From the NCBI RefSeq assembly GCF_021730435.1, contig NZ_JABWGX010000011.1, forward strand, positions 62,001 through 126,000: a DNA stretch of 64,000 nt, given 5' to 3'. The stretch comes from Xanthobacter agilis. Its GTDB lineage: Bacteria; Pseudomonadota; Alphaproteobacteria; Rhizobiales; Xanthobacteraceae. A program made the translations under genes and the position numbers. The notes under the pieces were generated by a model. The model ran no database searches. It saw only the letters and a program-made list of their open reading frames with translations, and was not told where the DNA came from. Below, in pieces: positions 42,680-64,000 of this stretch. Every line of letters begins with the position of its first letter. The first letter of the stretch is position 1.

Positions 42680-44392
42680 TCAGAATTTCTTGACGTCGAT
42701 ACCGTGCCGGTTCAGCGCGTAAGCCACCTGGCGCGGCGTCAGATTGAGCAGGCGCGCCGCTTTTGCCTGCACCCAGCCAGCCGTCTCCATCGCGTCGAGC
42801 AGCATTTCGGCATCGGGCAGGCGCGGGATGTGAACCCGCGCCGCGCTTCGCCTCGCGACGCCGCGCCCGGACATCTCGACGGTCCGGGCATCTGCGGCCG
42901 GGTCCGGCATGTCGAACGGCGAGCACGACGACAACCGCTCCGCCCCTGTGAGGACGTCGTCCTCGGGTGGACATCCGGTGTCCTCGCGATAGAGGCTCCG
43001 CGAGCGCCCCTCTCCGGCAGCGAATCGGCGCTGGCCCCGCGACGCAACCCTCAGGTGACGCGCCAGCAGGCCGGCGGGACACCCCTCGCCCCGGCAGGCG
43101 AAATCCGTGGCCTCGATCTGCGGCCCCTGCGCCAGAATAGCGGTGCGCCGGATGCAGTTCTCAAGCTCGCGCACATTGCCGGGAAACGCGCAGGCGCGCA
43201 CGACCTCAAGGGCCGAGGCGCCGAGCTTCAGGCGGGTGTGGTTCTCGGCATTGAAGCGCTGCAGGACATGGCGGGCGAGCACCGGAATGTCGCCGGGCCG
43301 ATCCCGCAACGCCGGCAGCAGGATGGGCACGACGCCCAGGCGATAATAGAGATCGGCCCGGAAAACGCCCATCGCCACGGCCGTTTCGAGATCCCGATTG
43401 GTGGCGGCCACGATCCGCACGTCCACCTTCAGCGTCCGCGTCCCGCCGACCCGCTCGAACTCCCCCTCCTGCAGCACCCGCAACAGCTTGGCCTGGAAGC
43501 CCGCGGAGATGTCGCCAATCTCATCAAGGAACAAGGTGCCGCCATCGGCCAGCTCGAATCGGCCTTTGCGCGCCGCCAGGGCTCCCGTGAAAGCGCCCTT
43601 CTCGTGGCCGAAAAGCTCCGACTCCAGCATCGTTTCCGGCAGCGCCGCGCAATTGACCTTCACGAACGGCCCGGCCCGGCGGGGGGACAGGTGGTGAACC
43701 GCCTGGGCGAACAGCTCCTTGCCGGTACCGCTCTCGCCGCGCAGCAGCACGGCGAGAGCGCTCCCCGCCACCCGCGCCACCTTGTCCAGCGCCGCCCCCA
43801 AGGCCGCGCTGGACCCGACGATGCCCAGGTCGCGCGGGCGCGGCGGCGCGCCGGGCGGCGTCTCCACCGGCGGCGCCAACTCCTTCGGTGGCGGGGCCAC
43901 GCGCAACGCGGCCGCCACGAGGCTCGCCACCACGGTCAAAACCCGCAGATCCTCGTCGCAACTGCCCGCCATGCCCGACCGCCGCAGGCGCTCCACGCTC
44001 AAGGTGCCGACCACCCGGCCCGCTTCCTTTATGGGCACGCCGATACGGACCTCCTTGTCTCCCCCCGCGCAACCCGGCGTGCGCGCCACGGACGGCAGCG
44101 CCGTGTCGGCGATTTCCGCCAGAAAGGCGCCACCCGCGCGCTCCGCCGCCGCGCTGGCCTCTCCAGCGCCGGCGGCGAGCGGACGCGGAGCGCCGGTGTC
44201 GTCAACGATGCAGACAAGCCCATGATCGAGCCCGCAGAAACGCGACAGGACGCCCAGGGCCGCGCCGATGGCGCACGCCGGCGGCTGCGGCTCGGCGAGG
44301 ATCTCGGCGATCTCGCACACCCCCGACAGCGCCACATCGGCATCGCCGGGCGGAAGGGGAATCGCCTCGGAGGGCGGGGACATCACGTTCAT
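42680..44392 (-). CDS. nifA: NifA, sigma-54-dependent nitrogen fixation activator (O2-responsive type)
   Basis: A 570-residue activator. N-terminal GAF-like domain ([17 protein letters not shown] ... [20 protein letters not shown]), AAA+ domain with Walker A GESGTGKE, the GAFTGA loop contacting sigma-54 and GNVRELENC, then a Fis-type helix-turn-helix ending [20 protein letters not shown], which is NifA wording rather than VnfA/AnfA. Across the AAA+/linker junction the cysteines fit C-X11-C-X19-C-X4-C exactly, the metal-binding oxygen and redox switch of rhizobial NifA. The start at 44392 has GGAGA nine bases ahead. It follows vnfENX and the nfu gene on the same strand after 120 bases, an unusual home for nifA. 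Confidence 0.9.
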
Positions 44393-44512
44393 GCCGTTTT
44401 CTCCGCTGGTACGGCTGCGGGCGGAGCGGAAACACGCTCGTTCGAAGCGCCGCCTCAAGGCCGCGTCCTGGAGCAGCGCCGCAATGCGCAACCCTGCCGC
44501 TGGGACACGGGG

Positions 44513-48491: not shown

Positions 48492-50114
48492 ATGCTTGCC
48501 GAGGAAATCGTCACCGTGGACGTCGACGACACAATCGAAGACTTCACGCACTGTTTCACCGGCGAATGCCGGATCAACGTGCTGCCCATCCTCTACCAGA
48601 TCAGCCAGGTGATCGCTGAAAACGAAGACCTGACGAAGTCCCTCGCCATCATCCTCAAGGTGATGCAAAGGCGCCTCAAGGTTCACCGCGGCACCGTCAC
48701 CCTTTATGACAGGGGCTCGGAGACCATCTTCATCCATGAGAGCTTCGGCCTCACGGAAGAAGAGAAGTCGCGCGGCATCTATCTTCCGGGCGAGGGATTG
48801 ACCGGAGAGGTGGTGGAGACCGGCAAGCCCATCGTGGTGCCGCACCTTGCCGCCGACCCGCGCTTTCTGGACCGCACCCGCGCCCATGAGGACGGCAGCG
48901 CCGCGCGCGCCTCCTTCTTCTGCGTGCCCATCATCCATTCGCGCAAGGTGCACGGCACCATCAGCGCCGAGCGTGTCTATCTCGATCAACGGCTCCTGAA
49001 ACAAGACGTGGAGCTGATCGCCACCATCGCCTCCATGATCGCGCCGGCGGTGGAACTGTATCTGCTGGAAAACGTGGAGAAGGTGCGGCTCGAGAACGAG
49101 AACCGCCGCCTGAAGAGCGCGCTGCGCCAGCGGTTCAAGCCCTCCAACATCATCGGCAATTCCAAGCCCATGCAGGAGGTCTATGGCCTCATCCAGAAGG
49201 TGGCCGCCACCAAGGCCACCGTGCTGGTGCTGGGCGAGAGCGGGGTCGGCAAGGAGCTGGTGGCTAACGCGATCCACTATAACAGCCCCTCCGCCGAGGG
49301 GCCGTTCGTGGTGTTCAATTGCGCCGCGCTGCCGGAAAGCATCATCGAAAGCGAGCTGTTCGGCCATGAGAAGGGCGCCTTCACCGGCGCGCTCGGCACC
49401 CGCAAGGGACGCTTCGAGCTGGCCGATGGCGGCACCATCTTCCTCGACGAAGTGGGCGAGCTGTCCCTGCCCATGCAGGCCAAGCTCCTGCGCGTGCTGC
49501 AGCAAAAGACCTTCGACCGGGTCGGTGGCTCGAAGCCGATCCGGGTCGATCTGCGGATCATCGCCGCCACCAACCGCAACCTGCCGGAGATGGTGGAGAA
49601 GGGCACCTTTCGCGAGGACCTGTATTACCGGCTCAACGTCTTCCCCATCACCATCCCACCCCTGCGCGACCGGGCAAGCGACGTGATCCTGCTGACCGAC
49701 CATTTCGTCGCGAAATGCGCGGAAGACACCGGCAAGGAGGTGAAGCGCATCTCCACCCCCGCCCTCAACATGCTGATGGCCTATCACTGGCCCGGCAACG
49801 TGCGCGAGCTGGAGAACGTGATCGAGCGCTCGGTGATCCTCTCCGACGACAGCGTGATCCACGGCTATAACCTGCCGCCCTCACTCCAGACCTCCGCGGA
49901 GACCGGCACCAGCTTCGGCTGCGGGCTGGAGGCCAAGATCCAAGCGGTCGAATACGAGATGATCGTCGAAGCCCTGAAGAACCACCACGGCAACACCACC
50001 GAGGCCGCGAAGGACCTGGGCCTCACCCGGCGCATCCTCGGCCTGCGGATGGAAAAGCACGGCATCAACTACAAGAACTATCGGCGCGGCGCGGCGGCCA
50101 ACGACACGCCGTGA
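48492..50114 (+). CDS. vnfA: VnfA, sigma-54-dependent activator of vanadium nitrogenase genes
   Basis: A 540-residue enhancer-binding protein. GAF domain about 30-190 (LPILYQISQVIAENEDLTKS, RGIYLPGEGLTGEV, FFCVPIIHSRKVHGTISAER), AAA+ domain with Walker A GESGVGKE, the GAFTGA loop and [13 protein letters not shown], and a C-terminal HTH (NTTEAAKDLGLTRRILGLRM). Unlike the nifA product it lacks the C-X11-C linker motif but has two N-terminal cysteines spaced C-X4-C (Cys21, Cys26). Divergent from vnfE and near all vnf operons, with GTAC-type sites upstream of each, it is the expected activator. The ribosome-binding site before the ATG at 48492 is weak. Confidence 0.9.
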   Translation: MLAEEIVTVDVDDTIEDFTHCFTGECRINVLPILYQISQVIAENEDLTKSLAIILKVMQRRLKVHRGTVTLYDRGSETIFIHESFGLTEEEKSRGIYLPGEGLTGEVVETGKPIVVPHLAADPRFLDRTRAHEDGSAARASFFCVPIIHSRKVHGTISAERVYLDQRLLKQDVELIATIASMIAPAVELYLLENVEKVRLENENRRLKSALRQRFKPSNIIGNSKPMQEVYGLIQKVAATKATVLVLGESGVGKELVANAIHYNSPSAEGPFVVFNCAALPESIIESELFGHEKGAFTGALGTRKGRFELADGGTIFLDEVGELSLPMQAKLLRVLQQKTFDRVGGSKPIRVDLRIIAATNRNLPEMVEKGTFREDLYYRLNVFPITIPPLRDRASDVILLTDHFVAKCAEDTGKEVKRISTPALNMLMAYHWPGNVRELENVIERSVILSDDSVIHGYNLPPSLQTSAETGTSFGCGLEAKIQAVEYEMIVEALKNHHGNTTEAAKDLGLTRRILGLRMEKHGINYKNYRRGAAANDTP

Positions 50115-50674: not shown

Positions 50675-50872
50675 CTACATGGGTGTAATGCCATATTCCT
50701 TGTAGATTTCGTCCTGCGCCAGCTTGAACTCCTTCATGGTGAAATCGAATCCCGCGCTGCGGATCTCCGTCCAGCTCGCGTCATCGTCTTCACTGACCTC
50801 GTTCATCTTGCGTCGAAAATCATCATCCGACCGCATCCGGCGAATGTAGGCGACGGCTGATTCGACCGACAT
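50675..50872 (-). CDS. Nif11-domain small protein
   Basis: A 65-residue protein: MSVESAVAYIRRMRSDDDFR, then a segment ending WTEIRSAGFDFTMKEFKLAQ and DEIYKEYG. This is the Nif11 leader-like domain (helical, ends with the AGFDFT-x-EL/F-x-A pattern), known from nif clusters and as leaders of nitrile hydratase-like peptide precursors. There is no Cys-rich or Gly-Gly core after the domain, so it is not an obvious RiPP precursor. GGAGGAGAG precedes the start. It follows vnfH after a stable hairpin, in the same operon. Confidence 0.8.
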   Translation of the reverse strand: MSVESAVAYIRRMRSDDDFRRKMNEVSEDDDASWTEIRSAGFDFTMKEFKLAQDEIYKEYGITPM

Positions 50873-50914
50873 GCCCTCTCCTCCAATGGATTTCCAGCAC
50901 ACCCCGGGGCGGGG

Positions 50915-50942
50915 CGGGGCGCGGCGCTGGCGCCGCGCCCCG
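50915..50942 (-). other. GC-rich hairpin between vnfH and the Nif11 gene
   Basis: CGGGGCGCGGCGC and its exact complement flank a two-base centre (13-bp arms). Located 10 bases past the vnfH stop, it could stabilise the vnfH mRNA end and set a higher VnfH:Nif11 ratio, or attenuate transcription. Confidence 0.6.
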
Positions 50943-50952
50943 GAAAGCGGCG

Positions 50953-52739
<1,787 letters not shown>

Positions 52740-52871
52740 GGCGCCCCCTTGGTCGCGAAACCGTGCCGGCGCGCGCGGATTCACGGCGTCTGCCCGATGC
52801 TCGCGATCGAAGATGGATACTTCACGCGCCGCAGGGCGAGGAGCCCGGCTGCGGCGGCTCGAGAACTCAAT

Positions 52872-52887
52872 CGCAACAGTCGTGCCA
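52872..52887 (-). promoter_or_regulatory. Sigma-54 promoter for the fusion-vnfH-Nif11 operon
   Basis: On the minus strand TGGCACG-N4-TTGCG, a full match to the -24/-12 consensus core, about 133 bases before the fusion ATG. Confidence 0.88.
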
Positions 52888-52930
52888 GAAGTGTTTTCAA
52901 GCGCAGGCACCGGCTTTTTCCGGGTCTCTC

Positions 52931-52974
52931 GCACTGGCGCGTACGCTTTTTCGCAGCTTCGTACCAATTCGTGC
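52931..52974. promoter_or_regulatory. Pair of inverted VnfA-type activator sites between the two vnf operons
   Basis: Site 1 at 52931-52944 reads GTAC-GCGCCA-GTGC on the minus strand; site 2 at 52961-52974 reads GTAC-CAATTC-GTGC on the plus strand. Same motif, opposite directions, 16 bases apart. They stand 44-87 bases from the minus promoter and 77-120 from the vnfD promoter in this 463-base divergent gap, so one cluster could activate both operons. Confidence 0.65.
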
Positions 52975-56605: not shown

Positions 56606-57499
56606 ATGAGCTTCATGGAGCGCCTCGCAGCGGATTCCGCCTTCGGCTGGCCACGCCGGCTTGCCGGGCCCGAGCACCGGCAGATCGAGCTTTACACCAA
56701 GCGCAAGGCGCTAAGCTTCCTTCCCGACCCGCCGCCGCCGGAGCTGCCGCTGGCGCCGATCGCGGCGGTCTGCCGGGCCGCCTTTCTGGTGGACGCGGTG
56801 CTGTCCGCGCGCCACCCCGGCGCGCCGGGGCGCACCTCCTGGCAGCGCTATCTCGACCTGCCCAAGGCGAGCCGCACCGACAAGATCGTCGCCGAGCTTT
56901 ATCGCATCGTGCGCATAGCCCGCACGGTGGCCTTCCACCCCCAAGGACACGTGGAGATGCGTGACGCCATCGTGCGCTTCAACGGCGCCATCGACCGGGT
57001 CGCGCTTTCGCTGGAGATCACCGTGGCCGGGCTCGACCTGATCGAGGCCATGACCGCCTATTGGCTCGCCGCGGCCGAAAGCCCTTATCCGGAGGCCTAT
57101 GTGGAGGCGATGCTGGCCGAGTATTTCTTCGACATCGTCGCCGAGATCAAGCGCTTTGCCGACGAAGACCGCATCCTCTACCAATTCCGCCGCGCGTCGT
57201 CCTTCAACCGCCATTTCCGCCTCGACTGCGACAATCCCAAGTCGAGCGTAGCCGATGGCGCGCTGGCCTTCGAGATCCCGCCGGCCCATCGCGATGCCGC
57301 GCGCTATCCCATCGATTTCTTCCTGGTGCACGACCAGACGCTTCACATCATTCCGGTGGAGGCGACGCGCGAGGGCCGCATCGCCCTCGCGGAGCTGCCC
57401 AGGTGGCGCGCCCGCACCCCCGACGATCTGTCCCTGCCGGCCGCCTTCCGCCCCCGTTTCGCCCGCGAGGTGATGGTGGTGGGCCAGCCCATGACCTGA
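56606..57499 (+). CDS. Unknown 297-residue protein of the vanadium nitrogenase locus
   Basis: A soluble, largely helical protein with no recognised domain. Visible features: MERLAADSAFGWPRRLAGPE at the start; a middle section rich in hydrophobic helices (FNGAIDRVALSLEITVAGLD, EAMTAYWLAAAESPYPEAYV, FFDIVAEIKRFADEDRILYQ); and a beta-rich end (YPIDFFLVHDQTLHIIPVEA). It has only two Cys and no P-loop or signal peptide. AAGGA precedes the ATG. Position between vnfK and a NifX-family gene, 19 bases from the latter, makes a nitrogenase-accessory role likely, but none can be named. Confidence 0.75.
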   Translation: MSFMERLAADSAFGWPRRLAGPEHRQIELYTKRKALSFLPDPPPPELPLAPIAAVCRAAFLVDAVLSARHPGAPGRTSWQRYLDLPKASRTDKIVAELYRIVRIARTVAFHPQGHVEMRDAIVRFNGAIDRVALSLEITVAGLDLIEAMTAYWLAAAESPYPEAYVEAMLAEYFFDIVAEIKRFADEDRILYQFRRASSFNRHFRLDCDNPKSSVADGALAFEIPPAHRDAARYPIDFFLVHDQTLHIIPVEATREGRIALAELPRWRARTPDDLSLPAAFRPRFAREVMVVGQPMT

Positions 57500-58055: not shown

Positions 58056-58880
58056 CTACCCTGCGACACTCCCGAGGAACCGGCGCCGCACTGTCGCGCC
58101 GACCACATTGATGAGCGTCACCAGCGCGAGCAACACCAGGATCAGCGCCGAGGCCTCCCTGTATTCGAACAGGTGGAAGGCGGTGACGATCTCCAGCCCC
58201 AGCCCGCCGGCACCGACCGCGCCGAGGGTGGTGGCGGCCCGCAGATTGTGCTCCCACCGATAGACGCTCACATCCACCAATCGCGGCAGCACCTGCGGCA
58301 GGATCGAGAAGCGCAGCACCCCGAGCCGCGACACGCCATGGGCCCGCAGAGCATCGCCGGGGCCGGTCTCCACATGCTCGATGGTCTCGGCGAAGAACTT
58401 GCCAAGCATGCCGGTGGTGTGGGTGGCAAGGGCCAGGATGCCCGGCAGCGGGCCGAACCCCACCGCCGCCACGAAGATCACGCCCCAGATCAGGCCGGGA
58501 ATGGATCTCAGCACATTGAGGAACAGCCGCACCGGCTCGCCGATGAACGGCGTATGCACGAAGTTGCGCGCCGCCAGCGCCGCCAGGGGCAACGCCACGA
58601 GGGCGCCGGCGACGGTGCCGGCAACGCTCATGGAGAGGGTTTCGAGCAGGGGGCGGCCCCAGGCATGCCAGCGGCTGAAGTCGGGCGGCATGGCATCACA
58701 GGCCAGCCGCCAGATGGTTGGAACAGCATCCACATACCGGCCCAGATCGAATGCGCCGGCATAGATGAAGGCGGACAGGATCACCGCAACGCCCATTGCG
58801 GTGCCCAGGAGCGTGCGGCGGGTCCGCCTGCGGCCATCCTCAAGGATGGCCGCGACGTTAAGGGAGAGCGATGCGCTCAT
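58056..58880 (-). CDS. PhnE-like ABC transporter permease (putative vanadate uptake)
   Basis: A 274-residue permease with about six membrane segments and the EAA-like loop (ALRAHGVSRLGVLRFSILPQ) followed by VYRWEHNLRAATTLGAVGAG, the signature region of phosphonate/phosphite PhnE proteins. It overlaps the end of the binding-protein gene by four bases (ATGA). Together with its partners it forms an oxyanion importer. Vanadate is a structural analogue of phosphate, and the genes adjoin the vnf cluster, so vanadate is a plausible substrate; phosphonate or phosphite remains the alternative. No phn catabolic genes are near. Confidence 0.88.
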   Translation of the reverse strand: MSASLSLNVAAILEDGRRRTRRTLLGTAMGVAVILSAFIYAGAFDLGRYVDAVPTIWRLACDAMPPDFSRWHAWGRPLLETLSMSVAGTVAGALVALPLAALAARNFVHTPFIGEPVRLFLNVLRSIPGLIWGVIFVAAVGFGPLPGILALATHTTGMLGKFFAETIEHVETGPGDALRAHGVSRLGVLRFSILPQVLPRLVDVSVYRWEHNLRAATTLGAVGAGGLGLEIVTAFHLFEYREASALILVLLALVTLINVVGATVRRRFLGSVAG

Positions 58881-59779
58881 TGCACAGGCGGAATGGCGTC
58901 GGGATTGGTGTTCTTGATGGCATCGATCCAGATCCGCACCCGGTCGACGTCCGAATCCACCGCCGGAATGAAGGCCTCGGCCCGGAACACCTTGAGCGCC
59001 TCGGGATCGTCAACCGAGATGAAGGCCTTGCGGATCTCCTCCTTGAACGCCGGGTCGAGGCCCTCGCGGAAGGTCCACATGTATTCGGGAATGGGCGGGG
59101 AAACGGCCAGCACGCGCACCTGGTCTGGCGAGATTTTCCCCTCCTTGATGAGGCGATCGTAAATGGGCTTGGAGAGGCCGCCGGCGGTCACTTTCTTGCC
59201 GGCCACGGCCAGAGCCACCGCGTCATGGGCGCCCAGCACCCGCAGCGTATAGTCGCGCCCGGAGGCAAGGCCGGCATCGAGCAGCTGCCAGCGCGGCACC
59301 CAGGTGCCCGAGGTGGAGGCGGGATCGCCGAAGGCGATTTCGGTGCCCTTCAGATCCTTCAGCGACTGGGCCGGGCTGTCCTTCGGCACGATGATGACGG
59401 CCTCGAAGGTGGGGCCCACCACCGCGTGGGACGGACGGGCGAACGGCTCGAGCTTCGAGGCCCGCGAACGCAGGATGTAGGTGACCGGGCCGAGATAGGC
59501 GATGTCGATGCGGCCGAACCGCAGCGCCTCGCCGGTGGCCGCGTAATTGGCGCCCACCACCAGCTCGACCGGCAGTCCGAGCTTCTTTTCCAGATAGGTG
59601 CGCAGCGGCTCGTTGAGGCGCATCACGGTCGGGGCGGATTCGCCCGGCAGCAGGCCCACCACCAGCTTTTGCGGCTTTTCCGCCAGCGCCTGCGGCACGC
59701 TCGCGGTGAACAACCCGGCCACCGCCAGCGCGGCCGCGGCAAGGGCTTTTCGCGGGGGGACCCGAAACGAAAAGGTCAT
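58877..59779 (-). CDS. PhnD-like periplasmic oxyanion-binding protein (putative vanadate binder)
   Basis: A 300-residue type 2 periplasmic binding protein with a Sec signal peptide (KALAAAALAVAGLF ... PQALA cleavage). Family sequence: KLVVGLLPGESAPTVMRLNE, EALRFGRIDIAYLGPVTYIL, FEAVIIVPKDSPAQSLKDLK and GDPASTSGTWVPRWQLLDAG, the last giving the Ser/Thr-rich anion-binding loop of PhnD/PtxB. AGAGGA precedes the ATG at 59779. Encoded between the ATPase and permease of the same system. Confidence 0.9.
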   Translation of the reverse strand: MTFSFRVPPRKALAAAALAVAGLFTASVPQALAEKPQKLVVGLLPGESAPTVMRLNEPLRTYLEKKLGLPVELVVGANYAATGEALRFGRIDIAYLGPVTYILRSRASKLEPFARPSHAVVGPTFEAVIIVPKDSPAQSLKDLKGTEIAFGDPASTSGTWVPRWQLLDAGLASGRDYTLRVLGAHDAVALAVAGKKVTAGGLSKPIYDRLIKEGKISPDQVRVLAVSPPIPEYMWTFREGLDPAFKEEIRKAFISVDDPEALKVFRAEAFIPAVDSDVDRVRIWIDAIKNTNPDAIPPVQ

Positions 59780-59789
59780 GTTGATCCTC

Positions 59790-60593
59790 TCAGGAGTTGT
59801 CCGGCGACAGAACGCGGTCGCCATTGGGCGCGGGGGCAGAAAAAATGGCGGCCTCGGCCTCGGCATCGAAGGCGCCGGCCGGACCGTCGAAGGCGACCCG
59901 CCCGCCGGACAGGCCGACGATGCGGTCCGCCAGGACACGGGCAAGCTGGAGTTGGTGCAGCACGAGCACCGCCGTGAGCCCGTCGCGCACCACCAGCCGG
60001 CGCAGTTCGCCGCCCAGCCGGCGGGCCAGCACCGGGTCCACCGAGGCGAACGGCTCGTCGCCGAGGATCAGGCGCGGCGCGCGCACCAGGGCGCGCGCTA
60101 TGCCCACCCGCTGGCGCTCACCGCCGGAGAGGGTGTCGGTGCGGGCGGTGGCGCGGGACAAGAGCCCCACGTCCGCCAGGGCCAGCGCCGCCCGCTCCCG
60201 CGCCGCGCGCGGCCAGGGCAGAAGCGAAAGCGGATGGCGGGTATCGGCGAGGCCCAGCAGCACATTGTCGATGGCGGGAAGGCGGCCGATGAGGGCATGG
60301 TCCTGAAACACCATGGCGGTGCGCCGGCGCATCTCGCGCAGCACGCCCGGTTCCCCGAGGCCGCCGAGCCCCGCCACCGCCACCCGCCCCGCCTGCGGCG
60401 CCACCAGGCCGTTCAGCACGTTCATGAGCGTGGTTTTGCCAACGCCGGACGGCCCCACCACGGCGGTGATGGTGCCTTCCGCGAACGCGGTGGAAATCTC
60501 GTTGAGGATGGGCCGCCCGCCGCGCATCACGGAAAGCCCCACGATGGTGAGGGCGGGACGCCACGCCTGCGAGCCGATGGTGAGCGCATTCAC
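59790..60593 (-). CDS. PhnC-like ABC transporter ATPase (putative vanadate uptake)
   Basis: A 267-residue ATPase with Walker A GPSGVGKTT, signature LSGGERQR, Walker B RLILGDEPFASVD and H-loop VLHQLQ; the VNG/LGLADTRHPLSLLPW insert resembles PhnC proteins. The start is a GTG at 60593 overlapping the previous stop (GTGA), showing translational coupling to the 83-residue gene. Ten bases separate it from the binding-protein gene. Confidence 0.9.
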   Translation of the reverse strand: MNALTIGSQAWRPALTIVGLSVMRGGRPILNEISTAFAEGTITAVVGPSGVGKTTLMNVLNGLVAPQAGRVAVAGLGGLGEPGVLREMRRRTAMVFQDHALIGRLPAIDNVLLGLADTRHPLSLLPWPRAARERAALALADVGLLSRATARTDTLSGGERQRVGIARALVRAPRLILGDEPFASVDPVLARRLGGELRRLVVRDGLTAVLVLHQLQLARVLADRIVGLSGGRVAFDGPAGAFDAEAEAAIFSAPAPNGDRVLSPDNS

Positions 60594-60841
60594 GGCTTGA
60601 GACCTTGCACGAGGGTGAGCCTGGGCCGCGCGGCGGGGTGATGGCGACGCAGGCGGGCGGCATGGCTCCAAATGGCGTCCACCACCTCCTCGATGCCGCC
60701 GTCCAGCGCCGCCTCGCGAAAGCCGGCGGCGACCAGCATGTCGACCGCGCACTCGGCCAAGGCGACGGCGATGGTGTCGAACTCATGTCCATCGAGACGC
60801 ATCTCGAGGATGCAGCGATTCAGGCAGATCTCCGGGCGCAT
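60590..60841 (-). CDS. Unknown 83-residue protein, first gene of the oxyanion transporter operon
   Basis: MRPEICLNRCILEMRLDGHE is followed by FDTIAVALAECAVDMLVAAG and GGIEEVVDAIWSHAARLRRH. Soluble, helical, three Cys in the first half; no family recognised. GGGAG lies nine bases before the ATG at 60841. Coupling to the ATPase gene (GTGA) implies a related task, perhaps as a sensor or as an accessory to metal-oxyanion uptake. Confidence 0.65.
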   Translation of the reverse strand: MRPEICLNRCILEMRLDGHEFDTIAVALAECAVDMLVAAGFREAALDGGIEEVVDAIWSHAARLRRHHPAARPRLTLVQGLKP

Positions 60842-61102: not shown

Positions 61103-62350
61103 CTATCCATTCAGATGCGCATCATGAGCACCGGCCGGATCTGCCGGGTCGCCGGCGACACCTCCATTCACATGGGCGTAGCGGCCGAAGCGGGTGAAGT
61201 CGCGCGGCAGCGCGCCGGCCTCCACCGCCTGTGCCAATCCTTCCGGGTCATGCACCAGAAGGCCGCCCAGCGTTTCCACGCCGTAATCGTAAAGCCGTGG
61301 CGTCATGGGCGTGGACGGCCCCACCAGCGCGATGGGGCGGCTGCCGGCCAGGCGCAGGATACGCGGCAGGCTGCGGTTGATGAGCGCCGAGGAATTCACG
61401 ATCGCCCCGCCACATCCGGGCAACAGCGCATCCATGGCGGCGATGGGATAAGCGCCGGGGCGCGGATCAGCCTCCACCACCGCGCAGCGGGGCAGGATGC
61501 CGTCCACGCCGGGAAAGGCGCCGATGACCACCACCTGGCCCTCCACATGGCGGAAGCGGTGCGCGCCGTTCCCCGGCCGCCCTTCGAGGTCATAGCGGTT
61601 GTAATGGGCATTGAGCGCGGCCACACCCACCGCGGTTTCGAGCGGGTCCCATGAGGCGGTCAGCTCGGCCAGGTCGCGCAGGCTGCGCCGGCGCAGCTCC
61701 GGCAGGCGCGCGCGCAGCTCACGCGGATGGCGCGGCAAAGCGGCGAGACCCGCGCCCTGCGGCCCCTCCACCAGGATCCAACGCGGACCGATGGTGATGC
61801 GGCGCACCTCCGCTTCGGCGACGCCCAGGGCGAGATCGCGATAAAGCCTGTCCGGTCCCCACCAGGTCCACAGGGCGCGGCGGTCCGGCGCGATCATGGA
61901 ACCTTCGTGGCGCACATAGCTGTGCCATTGGTGGATGGCCTGCCCGGCAATGGCGGTGAGCATGGGCAGCCCGCGCCCCACCCCGCCGCCGATGGGCGCG
62001 CCGACCAGGTCGGTCGCCTCGGTGCAGGCGGAGAAGCGGCCGATGAGCAGGAGGTCCGCCACCTCGGCCATAGCCCGACGCAGAAACCCTTCCGCCGCGC
62101 CCGGCTCGCGCGGCAGCGGCCGGCTGGTGGCAAGGTCGATATAGAGCGGCGGCCCGCTGGCATCGGGCCGCGGCACCTGGACGTAACCGAGCACGCGGAA
62201 CCCGCGCGCGTTCAGCTCGAAGGCGAAGGATGCCAGCAGAGCGTCCACGCATTCGAACGGATCGTGCACGACCACGCCAGGACGGATCCAGCCGCATGCC
62301 GGCGCAGGATCCCCTTGCAGCGGCGACCTCGGCACCTTCGACCCGCTCAT
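61103..62350 (-). CDS. DUF2478 / DUF364-like (heavy-metal chelation) two-domain protein
   Basis: A 415-residue protein. The N-terminal ~160 residues resemble DUF2478, a family seen near molybdate transport and nif genes (LASFAFELNARGFRVLGYVQ, PLYIDLATSRPLPREPG, ADLLLIGRFSACTEATDLVG). The rest resembles the DUF4213/DUF364 'heavy-metal chelation' fold (LTASWDPLETAVGVAALNAH, HVEGQVVVIGAFPGVDG, GCGGAIVNSSALINRSLPRI, ALVGPSTPMTPRLYDYGVET). The ATG at 62350 follows GGAGGT closely; an ATG at 62362 would give better spacing. It has a sigma-54 promoter 60 bases upstream, placing it in the nitrogen-fixation regulon. A metal or metal-complex handling role is inferred. Confidence 0.75.
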   Translation of the reverse strand: MSGSKVPRSPLQGDPAPACGWIRPGVVVHDPFECVDALLASFAFELNARGFRVLGYVQVPRPDASGPPLYIDLATSRPLPREPGAAEGFLRRAMAEVADLLLIGRFSACTEATDLVGAPIGGGVGRGLPMLTAIAGQAIHQWHSYVRHEGSMIAPDRRALWTWWGPDRLYRDLALGVAEAEVRRITIGPRWILVEGPQGAGLAALPRHPRELRARLPELRRRSLRDLAELTASWDPLETAVGVAALNAHYNRYDLEGRPGNGAHRFRHVEGQVVVIGAFPGVDGILPRCAVVEADPRPGAYPIAAMDALLPGCGGAIVNSSALINRSLPRILRLAGSRPIALVGPSTPMTPRLYDYGVETLGGLLVHDPEGLAQAVEAGALPRDFTRFGRYAHVNGGVAGDPADPAGAHDAHLNG

Positions 62351-62409
62351 GACACCTCCACCCATCGGCCGGACCCGAAAGACGCTTCCAAGGAATGCTA
62401 GGATGCCAT

Positions 62410-62425
62410 CGCAAGCATCGGGCCA
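62410..62425 (-). promoter_or_regulatory. Sigma-54 promoter for the DUF2478/DUF364 gene
   Basis: Minus-strand TGGCCCG-N4-TTGCG with GG-N10-GC spacing, the same -24 variant as the vnfE promoter, 60 bases upstream of the ATG. Confidence 0.7.
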
Positions 62426-62509
62426 GTGGCGGAAGCGGCGCCGTTCGGGCGTTTGCCCTGCCGCACCGGAGGTCGAGTGCACCTGGGGGAACGCCGTCAT
62501 GCACCCTTC

Positions 62510-62523
62510 GTACATCTGCGAAC
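62510..62523. promoter_or_regulatory. Candidate VnfA activator site
   Basis: GTAC-ATCTGC-GAAC, the GTAC-N6-GNNC form seen at the vnf operons, between two divergent sigma-54 promoters (85 bases from the left one, 43 from the right). Confidence 0.5.
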
Positions 62524-62565
62524 ACTTTGAGGCCGGGAACGCCGCCATCTCCTGAAAGCGTCGCT

Positions 62566-62581
62566 TGGCGCGACCCTTGCT
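62566..62581 (+). promoter_or_regulatory. Sigma-54 promoter for the ATP-grasp gene
   Basis: TGGCGCG-N4-TTGCT, one change from consensus, 64 bases before the ATG at 62645. Confidence 0.78.
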
Positions 62582-62644
62582 CAGTTCCACCCCGGCCCAC
62601 CCCGCGCCCCGCCGCGGACGAGCCAAACCAGAAAGCGAGACACC

Positions 62645-63694
62645 ATGGCCCAACTCCGTCTCGACGAGGTGCTGCTGCGGCCCGGAACGGGCGCCCTGGC
62701 GCGCATCCTTTTCCTCGCGCCTTACGCGCCGGAGGCGCCGGATTACGCCTGTCGCGCCTTTGCCGGCGATGGCGGCTATCCGGCCTATTACCATCGCGTG
62801 TTCGAGACCCTCACCAAGCTCGGCTATCCGGTGCGCACCGCCTCGCGGGCCGACGCCCCGCTCCAGGCCGCAGGCGCCACCGACCTCGTCTTTTCCCTCA
62901 TGAACCGCATGGAGATGGCCAATCCGGAAGTCTTCGTGCCGGCGTTGTGCGAGTTCCTGCACCTGCCCCATGTGGGCGCCACGCCCAATATCCGGGCGCT
63001 GGCCGAAGACAAGTGGCTGACCAAGAAGGTAGCCGAGGCCAGCGGCCTGCCGGTGGCGCCAGGCGCCCGCTACGACACCCCCGCCGCCCTTGCCGTGCCG
63101 CCGCCGTTCGCCGGCCCCTATTTCGTGAAGAACCGTTTCGGTGCCGCCTCCGAGGGGGTTTCGGATGCGTCCATCCAGGATGATTGGGCGGGCGCCGCGC
63201 GCGTGGCGGCGGATCTGATGGCGCGCGGCATGGCGGTCCTGGTGGAGCGGTTCGCCCCCGGCATCGACGTGACCGTGCCGGTGCTCGGCGGAGCGGAACC
63301 GCTGGTGCTCGGCCTCGTGCATCCCCGCTCCGACCGGGCGGGCGCCATCGTCACCGAGGAGCTGAAGCGGGACGATCCGCTCGGCTATGCGCTGTTCGAC
63401 GCGGGAGACGCGGAAGCGGCTTTCCACGCCGACGCCCGGGCACTGTGGGGCGCCGCCGGCCCCATGGATTATCTGCGCCTCGACTATCGCTTCGACGCTG
63501 AAACCGGGCGGCGCACGTTCCTGGAGTTCAACATCTGCTGCCACATCGGCCGCTCCGGCGCCATCTGTCTGGCCGCCGGCCAATGGGGCCTGTCGCAAGC
63601 GGACGTGCTGGGCCATGTGGTAGAATTCTCCCTCGCCCGCCAGCGCCGCCGGCTTCAGCCGCGCGAGACGGAGGCGATACGATGCGCCCAGTGA
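62645..63694 (+). CDS. ATP-grasp ligase (D-Ala-D-Ala ligase-like)
   Basis: A 349-residue enzyme. The pattern YHRVFETLTKLGYPV, HLPHVGATPNIRALAEDKWL, KKVAEASGLPVAPGARYDT, YFVKNRFGAASEGVSD, VLVERFAPGIDVTVPVLGG and YLRLDYRFD ... FLEFNICC follows the D-Ala-D-Ala ligase branch of ATP-grasp proteins, with the metal-binding Asp and Glu/Asn residues near the end in place. Such enzymes form an amide or ester from an acyl phosphate. It is not a normal cell-wall ligase by context: it has a sigma-54 promoter, is divergent from the DUF364-like gene and overlaps the next gene by 13 bases. A role in making or loading a small metal ligand is conceivable. Confidence 0.85.
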   Translation: MAQLRLDEVLLRPGTGALARILFLAPYAPEAPDYACRAFAGDGGYPAYYHRVFETLTKLGYPVRTASRADAPLQAAGATDLVFSLMNRMEMANPEVFVPALCEFLHLPHVGATPNIRALAEDKWLTKKVAEASGLPVAPGARYDTPAALAVPPPFAGPYFVKNRFGAASEGVSDASIQDDWAGAARVAADLMARGMAVLVERFAPGIDVTVPVLGGAEPLVLGLVHPRSDRAGAIVTEELKRDDPLGYALFDAGDAEAAFHADARALWGAAGPMDYLRLDYRFDAETGRRTFLEFNICCHIGRSGAICLAAGQWGLSQADVLGHVVEFSLARQRRRLQPRETEAIRCAQ

Positions 63695-64000
63695 TGCCCG
63701 CGCCGGACGGCGCCTTGATGCCCGCCGGTCCGCTCGACCTTCTGTGCGAAGTGCCGGTGCCGCTGCGGATGCGGTTCGCCGACGACCTGTCGCGCCATCT
63801 CGCCCGCCATTGCACGCAGGGTGGAGAAGCCTTCTCCTGCCATGTGCCCATGGGCCAGGGCGGCCCGAGCCCGCTCGACCGCCTGCGCTATGTCCGCGAT
63901 CCGCTCGACTTTCCGCGCATGCTGGTGTCGGCCCGGCACGGCAATGCGTTCAACCGCCGTTTCCATGACACACACATGCGCGCCGGGGCCTTCAGCTCCG
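63682..64000 (+). CDS. Unknown protein, 5' part only
   Basis: At least 106 residues from the ATG at 63682, open to the window edge. Visible: MPAGPLDLLCEVPVPLRMRF, LARHCTQGGEAFSCHVPMGQ, and a segment ending FPRMLVSARHGNAFNRRF. No signal peptide or known motif in the part seen. It overlaps the ATP-grasp gene by 13 bases and is therefore probably in the same sigma-54 operon. Function cannot be assigned. Confidence 0.6.
   Translation, partial: MRPVMPAPDGALMPAGPLDLLCEVPVPLRMRFADDLSRHLARHCTQGGEAFSCHVPMGQGGPSPLDRLRYVRDPLDFPRMLVSARHGNAFNRRFHDTHMRAGAFSS

Follow-up and report, generated by a model that had tools for sequence, protein, structure and literature searches.

A probable VnfA-type divergent promoter and a candidate vanadium-processing operon beside the vanadium nitrogenase genes of Xanthobacter agilis

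The 64,000-nucleotide stretch of the Xanthobacter agilis genome analysed here (the window; contig NZ_JABWGX010000011.1, positions 62,001 to 126,000) carries vanadium nitrogenase (vnf) genes and, at 62351-62644, a gap between two divergent genes. This gap is probably a bidirectional sigma-54 promoter region activated by VnfA, and the products encoded on its two sides most likely process vanadium for the iron-vanadium (FeV) cofactor. The promoter elements, their conservation, the make-up of the operon and its linkage to vnf genes and a transporter are established at the level of sequence. A conserved VnfA-type divergon is a well-supported prediction. Predicted control by VnfA and sigma-54 with co-induction of the genes is the best reading. 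Such regulation had been put forward in an original prediction made from the letters of this stretch. It is supported by a conserved composite of sites, a sigma-54 activator with a GAF domain in the cluster and a VnfA1-dependent counterpart in Azotobacter vinelandii. The gap holds the following elements.

62351..62644, no strand: divergent regulatory gap, 294 bp between two start codons
62410..62425, minus strand: sigma-54 -24/-12 element TGGCCCGATGCTTGCG, facing the DUF364 gene
62566..62581, plus strand: sigma-54 -24/-12 element TGGCGCGACCCTTGCT, facing the ATP-grasp gene
62510..62523, no strand: proximal VnfA-like site GTACATCTGCGAAC, 7 of 8 positions of GTAC-N6-GTAC
62479..62492, no strand: distal VnfA-like site GCACCTGGGGGAAC, 6 of 8 positions, 31 bp upstream of the proximal site

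The original prediction had described a 294-base divergent gap with sigma-54 elements on both strands and a GTAC-N6-GNNC motif between them, a layout likened to the vnfE/vnfA and fusion/vnfD gaps. All of this was confirmed. Between the two start codons, the gap runs from 62351 to 62644. The elements at 62425-62410 (minus) and 62566-62581 (plus) score 18.0 and 18.5 (maximum 19.5, own weighting), and both pass as -24/-12 elements with GG and GC. The strict consensus TGGCACRNNNNTTGCW is missed by both at one position (position 5, C or G); it has seven matches genome-wide and none on the window's contig. The motif at 62510-62523 matches at 7 of 8 positions and reads as GTAC-N6-GAAC. The second site at 62479-62492 had been overlooked. 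The top-scoring sites of the window all fall in the three gaps: four VnfA-like sites that match at 7 or more of 8 positions, and five sigma-54 elements scoring at least 18. For the other two gaps, this placing assumes that vnfE starts at ATG 48114 (preceded by GGAGG) and the fusion gene near 52784 or 52739, each inside the longest open reading frame (ORF). The joint pattern GTAC-N6-GNAC-N(40-70)-TGGCNNRNNNNYTGC, written after the site had been seen, has a single match in the 4.8-Mb genome, in the 62351-62644 gap; the backwards control gave none.

Conservation was analysed upstream of 18 ATP-grasp genes, from the window and from 17 named loci obtained by a genome scan for this gene. A composite was defined as two 14-mers with at least 6/8 matches to GTAC-N6-GTAC, 30-32 bp apart, followed by a sigma-54 element that scores at least 17 and whose start lies 54-59 bp beyond that of the second site. 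Nine of the 18 regions have it (the window, L038, L039, L045, L046, L048, L049, L050 and L051). It is present in 9 of 14 loci with genes for a substrate-binding protein (SBP) and a GTPase downstream, window counted, and in 0 of 4 without them. Among the named loci carrying the operon beside vnf genes, 8 of 13 have the composite. The 18 upstream regions, dinucleotide-shuffled 5400 times in total, gave no match. Both strands of the 18 loci (790.8 kb) contain 19 composites: 13 in the gap of the ATP-grasp gene (either direction), 6 in vnf promoter regions and 0 elsewhere. A chance origin of the gap sites was rejected by the shuffles and the clustering of sites across the window. With looser limits (spacing 50-110 bp, score at least 16.5), a composite also faces the DUF364 gene in 6 of 8 divergent gaps, L048 and L050 being without.

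The promoter alignment took in only the nine regions carrying the composite. Identity is 35-53% in 34 of their 36 pairs and higher in the other two (L038/L039 77%, L048/L050 87%). Across them, TTGGC-N-CG-N4-TTGCT and most site letters are fixed. The distal site is GCAC-N6-G(A/T)AC in 9/9. The proximal site is mostly GTAC-N6-G(A/T)AC, with GTTC or TTAC as the first half in three of the nine. At L046, the gene opposite the ATP-grasp gene in such a gap is PhnC-like. Upstream regions of the Rhodoblastus DUF364 genes contain sigma-54 elements and related sites, and no paired sites were found in four Rhodomicrobium loci (L025-L028) in a looser site listing.

The divergon comprises one gene on the minus strand and five on the plus strand.

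61103..62350, minus strand: DUF2478-DUF4213-DUF364 protein, 415 amino acids (Pfam, match to 3l5o, model)
62645..63694, plus strand: ATP-grasp ligase-like protein, 349 amino acids, with an invariant EFNICCHIGRSG (profile, fold, alignment)
63682..64728 in contig numbering (window part 63682..64000), plus strand: SBP_bac_6 protein, 348 amino acids (Pfam)
64719-65417 in contig numbering, plus strand: CobW/HypB-type GTPase (domain annotation)
65414-66271 in contig numbering, plus strand: ATP-binding cassette (ABC) ATPase (domain annotation)
66259-66807 in contig numbering, plus strand: nitroreductase (domain annotation)

The original prediction had named a gene pair. The two genes are indeed divergent; the real unit is one gene facing a five-gene operon that continues past the window end. 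This continuation was missed: the window stops within the operon's second gene, which made the unit look like a pair. Each gene start in the operon overlaps the preceding stop, so a single transcript is likely. By eye, no signal peptide is evident in the SBP, and the protein looks cytosolic. In the GTPase, cysteines C64, C96, C99, C110, C204 and C207 are invariant in 9/9 aligned members, two of which are paralogues.

The minus-strand protein has its DUF2478 domain at profile positions 82-159. Its DUF364 domain (PF04016) passes the Pfam gathering cut-off with 100.1 versus 23 bits. DUF2478, DUF4213 and DUF364 were all matched in 15/15 aligned members (E-value at most 0.001). The protein matches 3l5o with an E-value of 1.3e-34, and its model (predicted local distance difference test, pLDDT, 82.3) matches 3l5o and 3npg.

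For the ATP-grasp protein, no Pfam family matched at an E-value of 0.01 or below. The fold is that of an ATP-grasp enzyme: the model (pLDDT 82.8) has 4zqi as best Foldseek match (E-value 1.7e-16). Membership of the D-Ala-D-Ala ligases (Ddl) was rejected, with 46.5 bits versus an NCBIfam subfamily cut-off of 243. EFNICCHIGRSG is invariant in 18/18 aligned proteins; its E and N align with Mg ligands of Ddl. The invariant Cys-Cys-His (CCH) suggests that the acceptor site involves a thiol or metal. Distant homologues occur in five genomes of one other genus, at about 31-36% identity. Two of them, L030 and L031, read EVNLSCNL where the close set has EFNICCHI (two alignments), so the CCH motif is not general.

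The operon is closely linked to vnf genes. SBP and GTPase genes follow the ATP-grasp gene in 13 of the 17 named loci (L038-L043, L045-L051); in L050, the contig breaks off ahead of the ABC gene. L044, L052, L053 and L054 are without both, L052 having an adjacent nitroreductase and L054 a DUF364 gene. Pieces of vnfD or vnfK accompany the operon on the same stretch in all 13 loci; a PhnD-like gene is present in 10. A DUF364 gene stands beside the operon in 11 of them, divergent in 7 and on the same strand in 4 Rhodoblastus loci.

Co-occurrence across genomes points in the same direction. In the class, the ATP-grasp protein (E-value at most 1e-60) and AnfG_VnfG were found in the same 2 of 385 genomes, the window's own among them (p = 1.4e-5 with and 0.0026 without this genome). 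In the order, close ATP-grasp homologues (E-value below 1e-140) are present in 5 of 297 genomes and AnfG_VnfG in 4, all within those five. Without the own genome, the counts are 4 and 3 of 296 (p = 9.3e-7), those four representing one genus; counted by genus, they are 1 and 1 of 122 (p = 0.008). The order count leaves out five genomes of one genus that matched only at the 1e-20 cut-off (33-36% identity). The nitrogenase delta subunit was present in 17 of 19 genomes checked, the others being Rhodomicrobium sp. Az07 and the metagenome-assembled genome (MAG) of L050. L050 holds a VnfK piece although its MAG is without the delta subunit. The GTPase (E-value at most 1e-50) was found in only two of 398 phylum genomes, G000 and G456. 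A plasmid collection yielded four GTPase records, none from Azotobacter or Nostoc, and three weak ATP-grasp records; three Nostoc plasmids carry a VnfD relative at 74%.

Parts of the divergon also occur in other surroundings. Second DUF2478-DUF364 copies lie between the operon and vnfX in L038 (16214-17392) and L039 (14848-16047). Azospirillum has DUF2478-DUF364 homologues (nine records, 41-44% identity). In L085 (11671-13188) and L086 (11712-13191), the gene directly follows a TusA-family sulfurtransferase gene, and no nitrogenase gene is annotated around it in these two regions. On a plasmid of Methylococcus sp. EFPC2 (L087, 2158-3177), a DUF364 gene closely follows bfr in a region that also contains nifHDK; DUF364 hence also accompanies Mo-nitrogenase genes. 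Fusobacterium vincentii (L076, 10823-13807) encodes a DUF1858-fused SBP, a GTPase and an ABC ATPase beside ZnuA/ABC-3-type genes. A like SBP-GTPase-ABC set lies beside Peripla_BP_2/FecCD genes in L075 (7134-12784) of G139, which has the same genus code as Rhodomicrobium udaipurense. The GTPase shares 56-60% identity with these paralogous sets. The paralogues suggest that the vnf operon may be a copy, adapted to vanadium, of a more widespread module for handling metals.

Other features of the window are as follows.

48492..50114, plus strand: GAF-domain sigma-54 activator, here called VnfA
58056..60752, minus strand: PhnCDE-like ABC transporter between vnfK and the divergon (profile matches)
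42680-44491: second sigma-54 activator
56606-57499, plus strand: ORF of 297 amino acids adjoining vnfK, without Pfam or NCBIfam match

The best NCBIfam match of the activator at 48492-50114 is nifA, below the cut-off (493.3 versus 528.85 bits); the name VnfA was given because of its place beside vnfE. PhnE passes the cut-off for phosphonate transporters with 279.7 versus 216.7 bits. A role of the PhnCDE-like transporter as vanadate carrier is suggested by its place and by VodABC of A. vinelandii, a phosphonate-annotated transporter predicted to carry vanadate (PMC9542535). Ten of the 13 operon loci have relatives of the ORF at 56606-57499, with 44-54% identity. On the minus strand, 51882-52967 encodes a Nitro_FeMo-Co domain fused to a glyoxalase domain, with relatives in other vnf clusters. 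The minus-strand gene at 50675-51448, beside vnfH, has a C-terminal Nif11 domain; L035 and L092 contain a similar stretch.

To our knowledge, vanadium reduction, carriage and presentation to VnfEN have not been worked out. The gene content allows a proposal. When molybdenum is scarce, VnfA would be made and would switch on the DUF2478-DUF4213-DUF364 gene and the five-gene operon at the same time as vnfE, vnfD and the fusion gene. The promoters in both directions would draw on one pair of neighbouring VnfA sites, spaced by about 31 bp. Vanadium may be imported via the neighbouring PhnCDE-like transporter and then processed inside the cell. The flavin nitroreductase could reduce vanadium, and a small ligand that chelates it may be made or attached by the ATP-grasp ligase and the DUF364 protein. 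Holding vanadium and passing it to VnfEN for the FeV-cofactor would fall to three proteins: the SBP without evident signal peptide, the cysteine-rich GTPase and the ABC ATPase. A more specific version is possible and put forward tentatively: the divergon would be a dedicated intracellular vanadium-processing line in which the ATP-grasp protein, with CCH in its acceptor loop, makes or loads a small thiol ligand carrying reduced vanadium, replaces in alphaproteobacteria the glutamate-cysteine ligase known from the Azotobacter operon and has its chelator completed by the DUF2478-DUF364 protein. Conserved genes that stay together and accompany vnf under a like switch make a short list of candidates for vanadium handling, and an alphaproteobacterial ligase with a distinctive motif leads to a testable chemical prediction. 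This is relevant to anyone moving vanadium nitrogenase into a new host.

Several observations weigh against a VnfA-controlled unit dedicated to vanadium. The spacing limits of the composite were fixed after inspecting the site listing of the loci. Genome G456 is a fairer test because the limits were set without it; it has the composite with spacings of 32 and 56 bp. Five loci that carry the operon, L040-L043 and L047 (four Rhodoblastus loci and L043), have no exact composite ahead of the ATP-grasp gene. Retention of the motif in related genomes, expected from the original prediction, was found in eight named operon loci and G456, and not as exact layout in these five. PhnE scores as a phosphonate importer. 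The ATP-grasp gene is found without the GTPase in genomes with Fe-only nitrogenase (R. udaipurense, G030 and Blastochloris sulfoviridis); Rhodomicrobium sp. Az07 has it in a genome that lacks a delta subunit altogether. For this reason, the ATP-grasp protein is not tied strictly to vanadium. In MAG G313, Vnf and ATP-grasp are present and the GTPase gave no match. The Fusobacterium vincentii set beside ZnuA/ABC-3-type genes may indicate a general metal role. Separately, both L054 and G313 have Vnf, ATP-grasp and DUF364 and no GTPase match at an E-value of 1e-40 or below, which may be a MAG gap.

The strongest alternative is that the module serves alternative nitrogenases generally (V and Fe-only) or cofactor-ligand chemistry, and that VnfA merely places it in the Mo-free regulon. 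It would account for the ATP-grasp gene in the Fe-only genomes and in the genome without delta subunit, and for the DUF364 protein in the Mo-nitrogenase nif cluster of Methylococcus sp. EFPC2. We regard it as possible, if rather unlikely. It sits poorly with the position of every named SBP and GTPase locus beside vnf genes and with the PhnD-like gene in most of them. Furthermore, the GTPase (E-value at most 1e-40) was unmatched in 6 of 10 genomes, five of these six being without the Vnf delta subunit; in this count, G073 and G312 look like one organism.

That the products make a vanadium chelator for export or for the periplasm (a vanadophore), or detoxify vanadate, is unlikely. A ligase, the nearby transporter and the siderophore-type proposal for DUF364 in PMC2954201 would fit a vanadophore. 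However, no exporter, non-ribosomal peptide synthetase or outer-membrane receptor was found among the scanned module genes, the rest of the genome not being searched, and the SBP looks cytosolic by eye. That the promoters are driven by NifA, NtrC or the second sigma-54 activator encoded in the window, with incidental VnfA-like sites, is very improbable, as the sites keep their position and spacing between loci and also occur in vnf promoters, and the gap has no exact NifA-type TGT-N10-ACA site (NtrC sites were not scanned). NifA control of the gap was rejected on the lack of this exact site in 62351-62644.

The closest known system to the proposed VnfA-controlled divergon is the Avin_02430-02390 operon of A. 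vinelandii. According to PMC9542535, it encodes an SBP, a nickel-binding GTPase, an ABC ATPase, a nitroreductase and a glutamate-cysteine ligase. Divergent sigma-54 promoters, both VnfA1-dependent, flank a VnfA1 peak in chromatin immunoprecipitation. All genes but the glutamate-cysteine ligase are reported there as conserved in Proteobacteria with Vnf. Compared by domain annotation, the order SBP-GTPase-ABC ATPase-nitroreductase is the same in X. agilis. In contrast, the glutamate-cysteine ligase is last in A. vinelandii, whereas an ATP-grasp ligase is first here. The ORF listing, by size and place, has no shared plus-strand gene after the nitroreductase, and the domain scan of the X. agilis operon gave no glutamate-cysteine ligase. 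The divergent A. vinelandii gene Avin_02450 is called 'uncharacterised' in PMC9542535; X. agilis has the DUF2478-DUF4213-DUF364 gene in that place. The VnfA1 motif given there is GT(T/A)C-N6-GTAC, and most promoters have two such sites. In the promoters described as bound by VnfA1, the two sites likewise stand at a fixed distance from each other and are followed by a -24/-12 element. In the 62351-62644 gap, unlike these, two sites are common to two outward-facing promoters.

For DUF364, PMC2954201 (2010) gives a genome context with the vanadium genes RPA1384/RPA1385 and proposes that the family may act in chelator synthesis or in metal chelation. Dhaf4260 (3l5o) shares DUF4213 and DUF364 with the minus-strand protein, and by hand mapping the pocket residues Gly37, Asn83, Gly129 and Glu148 are kept. 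It differs by the N-terminal DUF2478 fused here, and Gly39, Arg42, Thr174 and Asp180 are not kept in the same mapping. The place of Asp180 is taken by an invariant Asn (N325). Because these four named pocket residues are not kept, the DUF364 chemistry may differ.

The ATP-grasp protein resembles D-Ala-D-Ala ligases: the 50 Foldseek matches listed are all Ddl, with template-modelling scores of 0.54-0.71 by query, and its profile matches VanA/Ddl. It differs from VanA (3se7), which has EVNTFPGMTSYS where the protein here has EFNICCHIGRSG. Among the matches listed in open-licence literature, no link of ATP-grasp or DUF2478 to vanadium nitrogenase was found, and none of DUF364 besides PMC9542535 and PMC2954201; one further listed paper, PMC9674854, mentions DUF2478 a single time. 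Regulation and module are partly known already. New are the ATP-grasp member with an invariant CCH, the DUF2478-DUF364 partner in a predicted VnfA-type divergon and the conserved alphaproteobacterial promoter layout.

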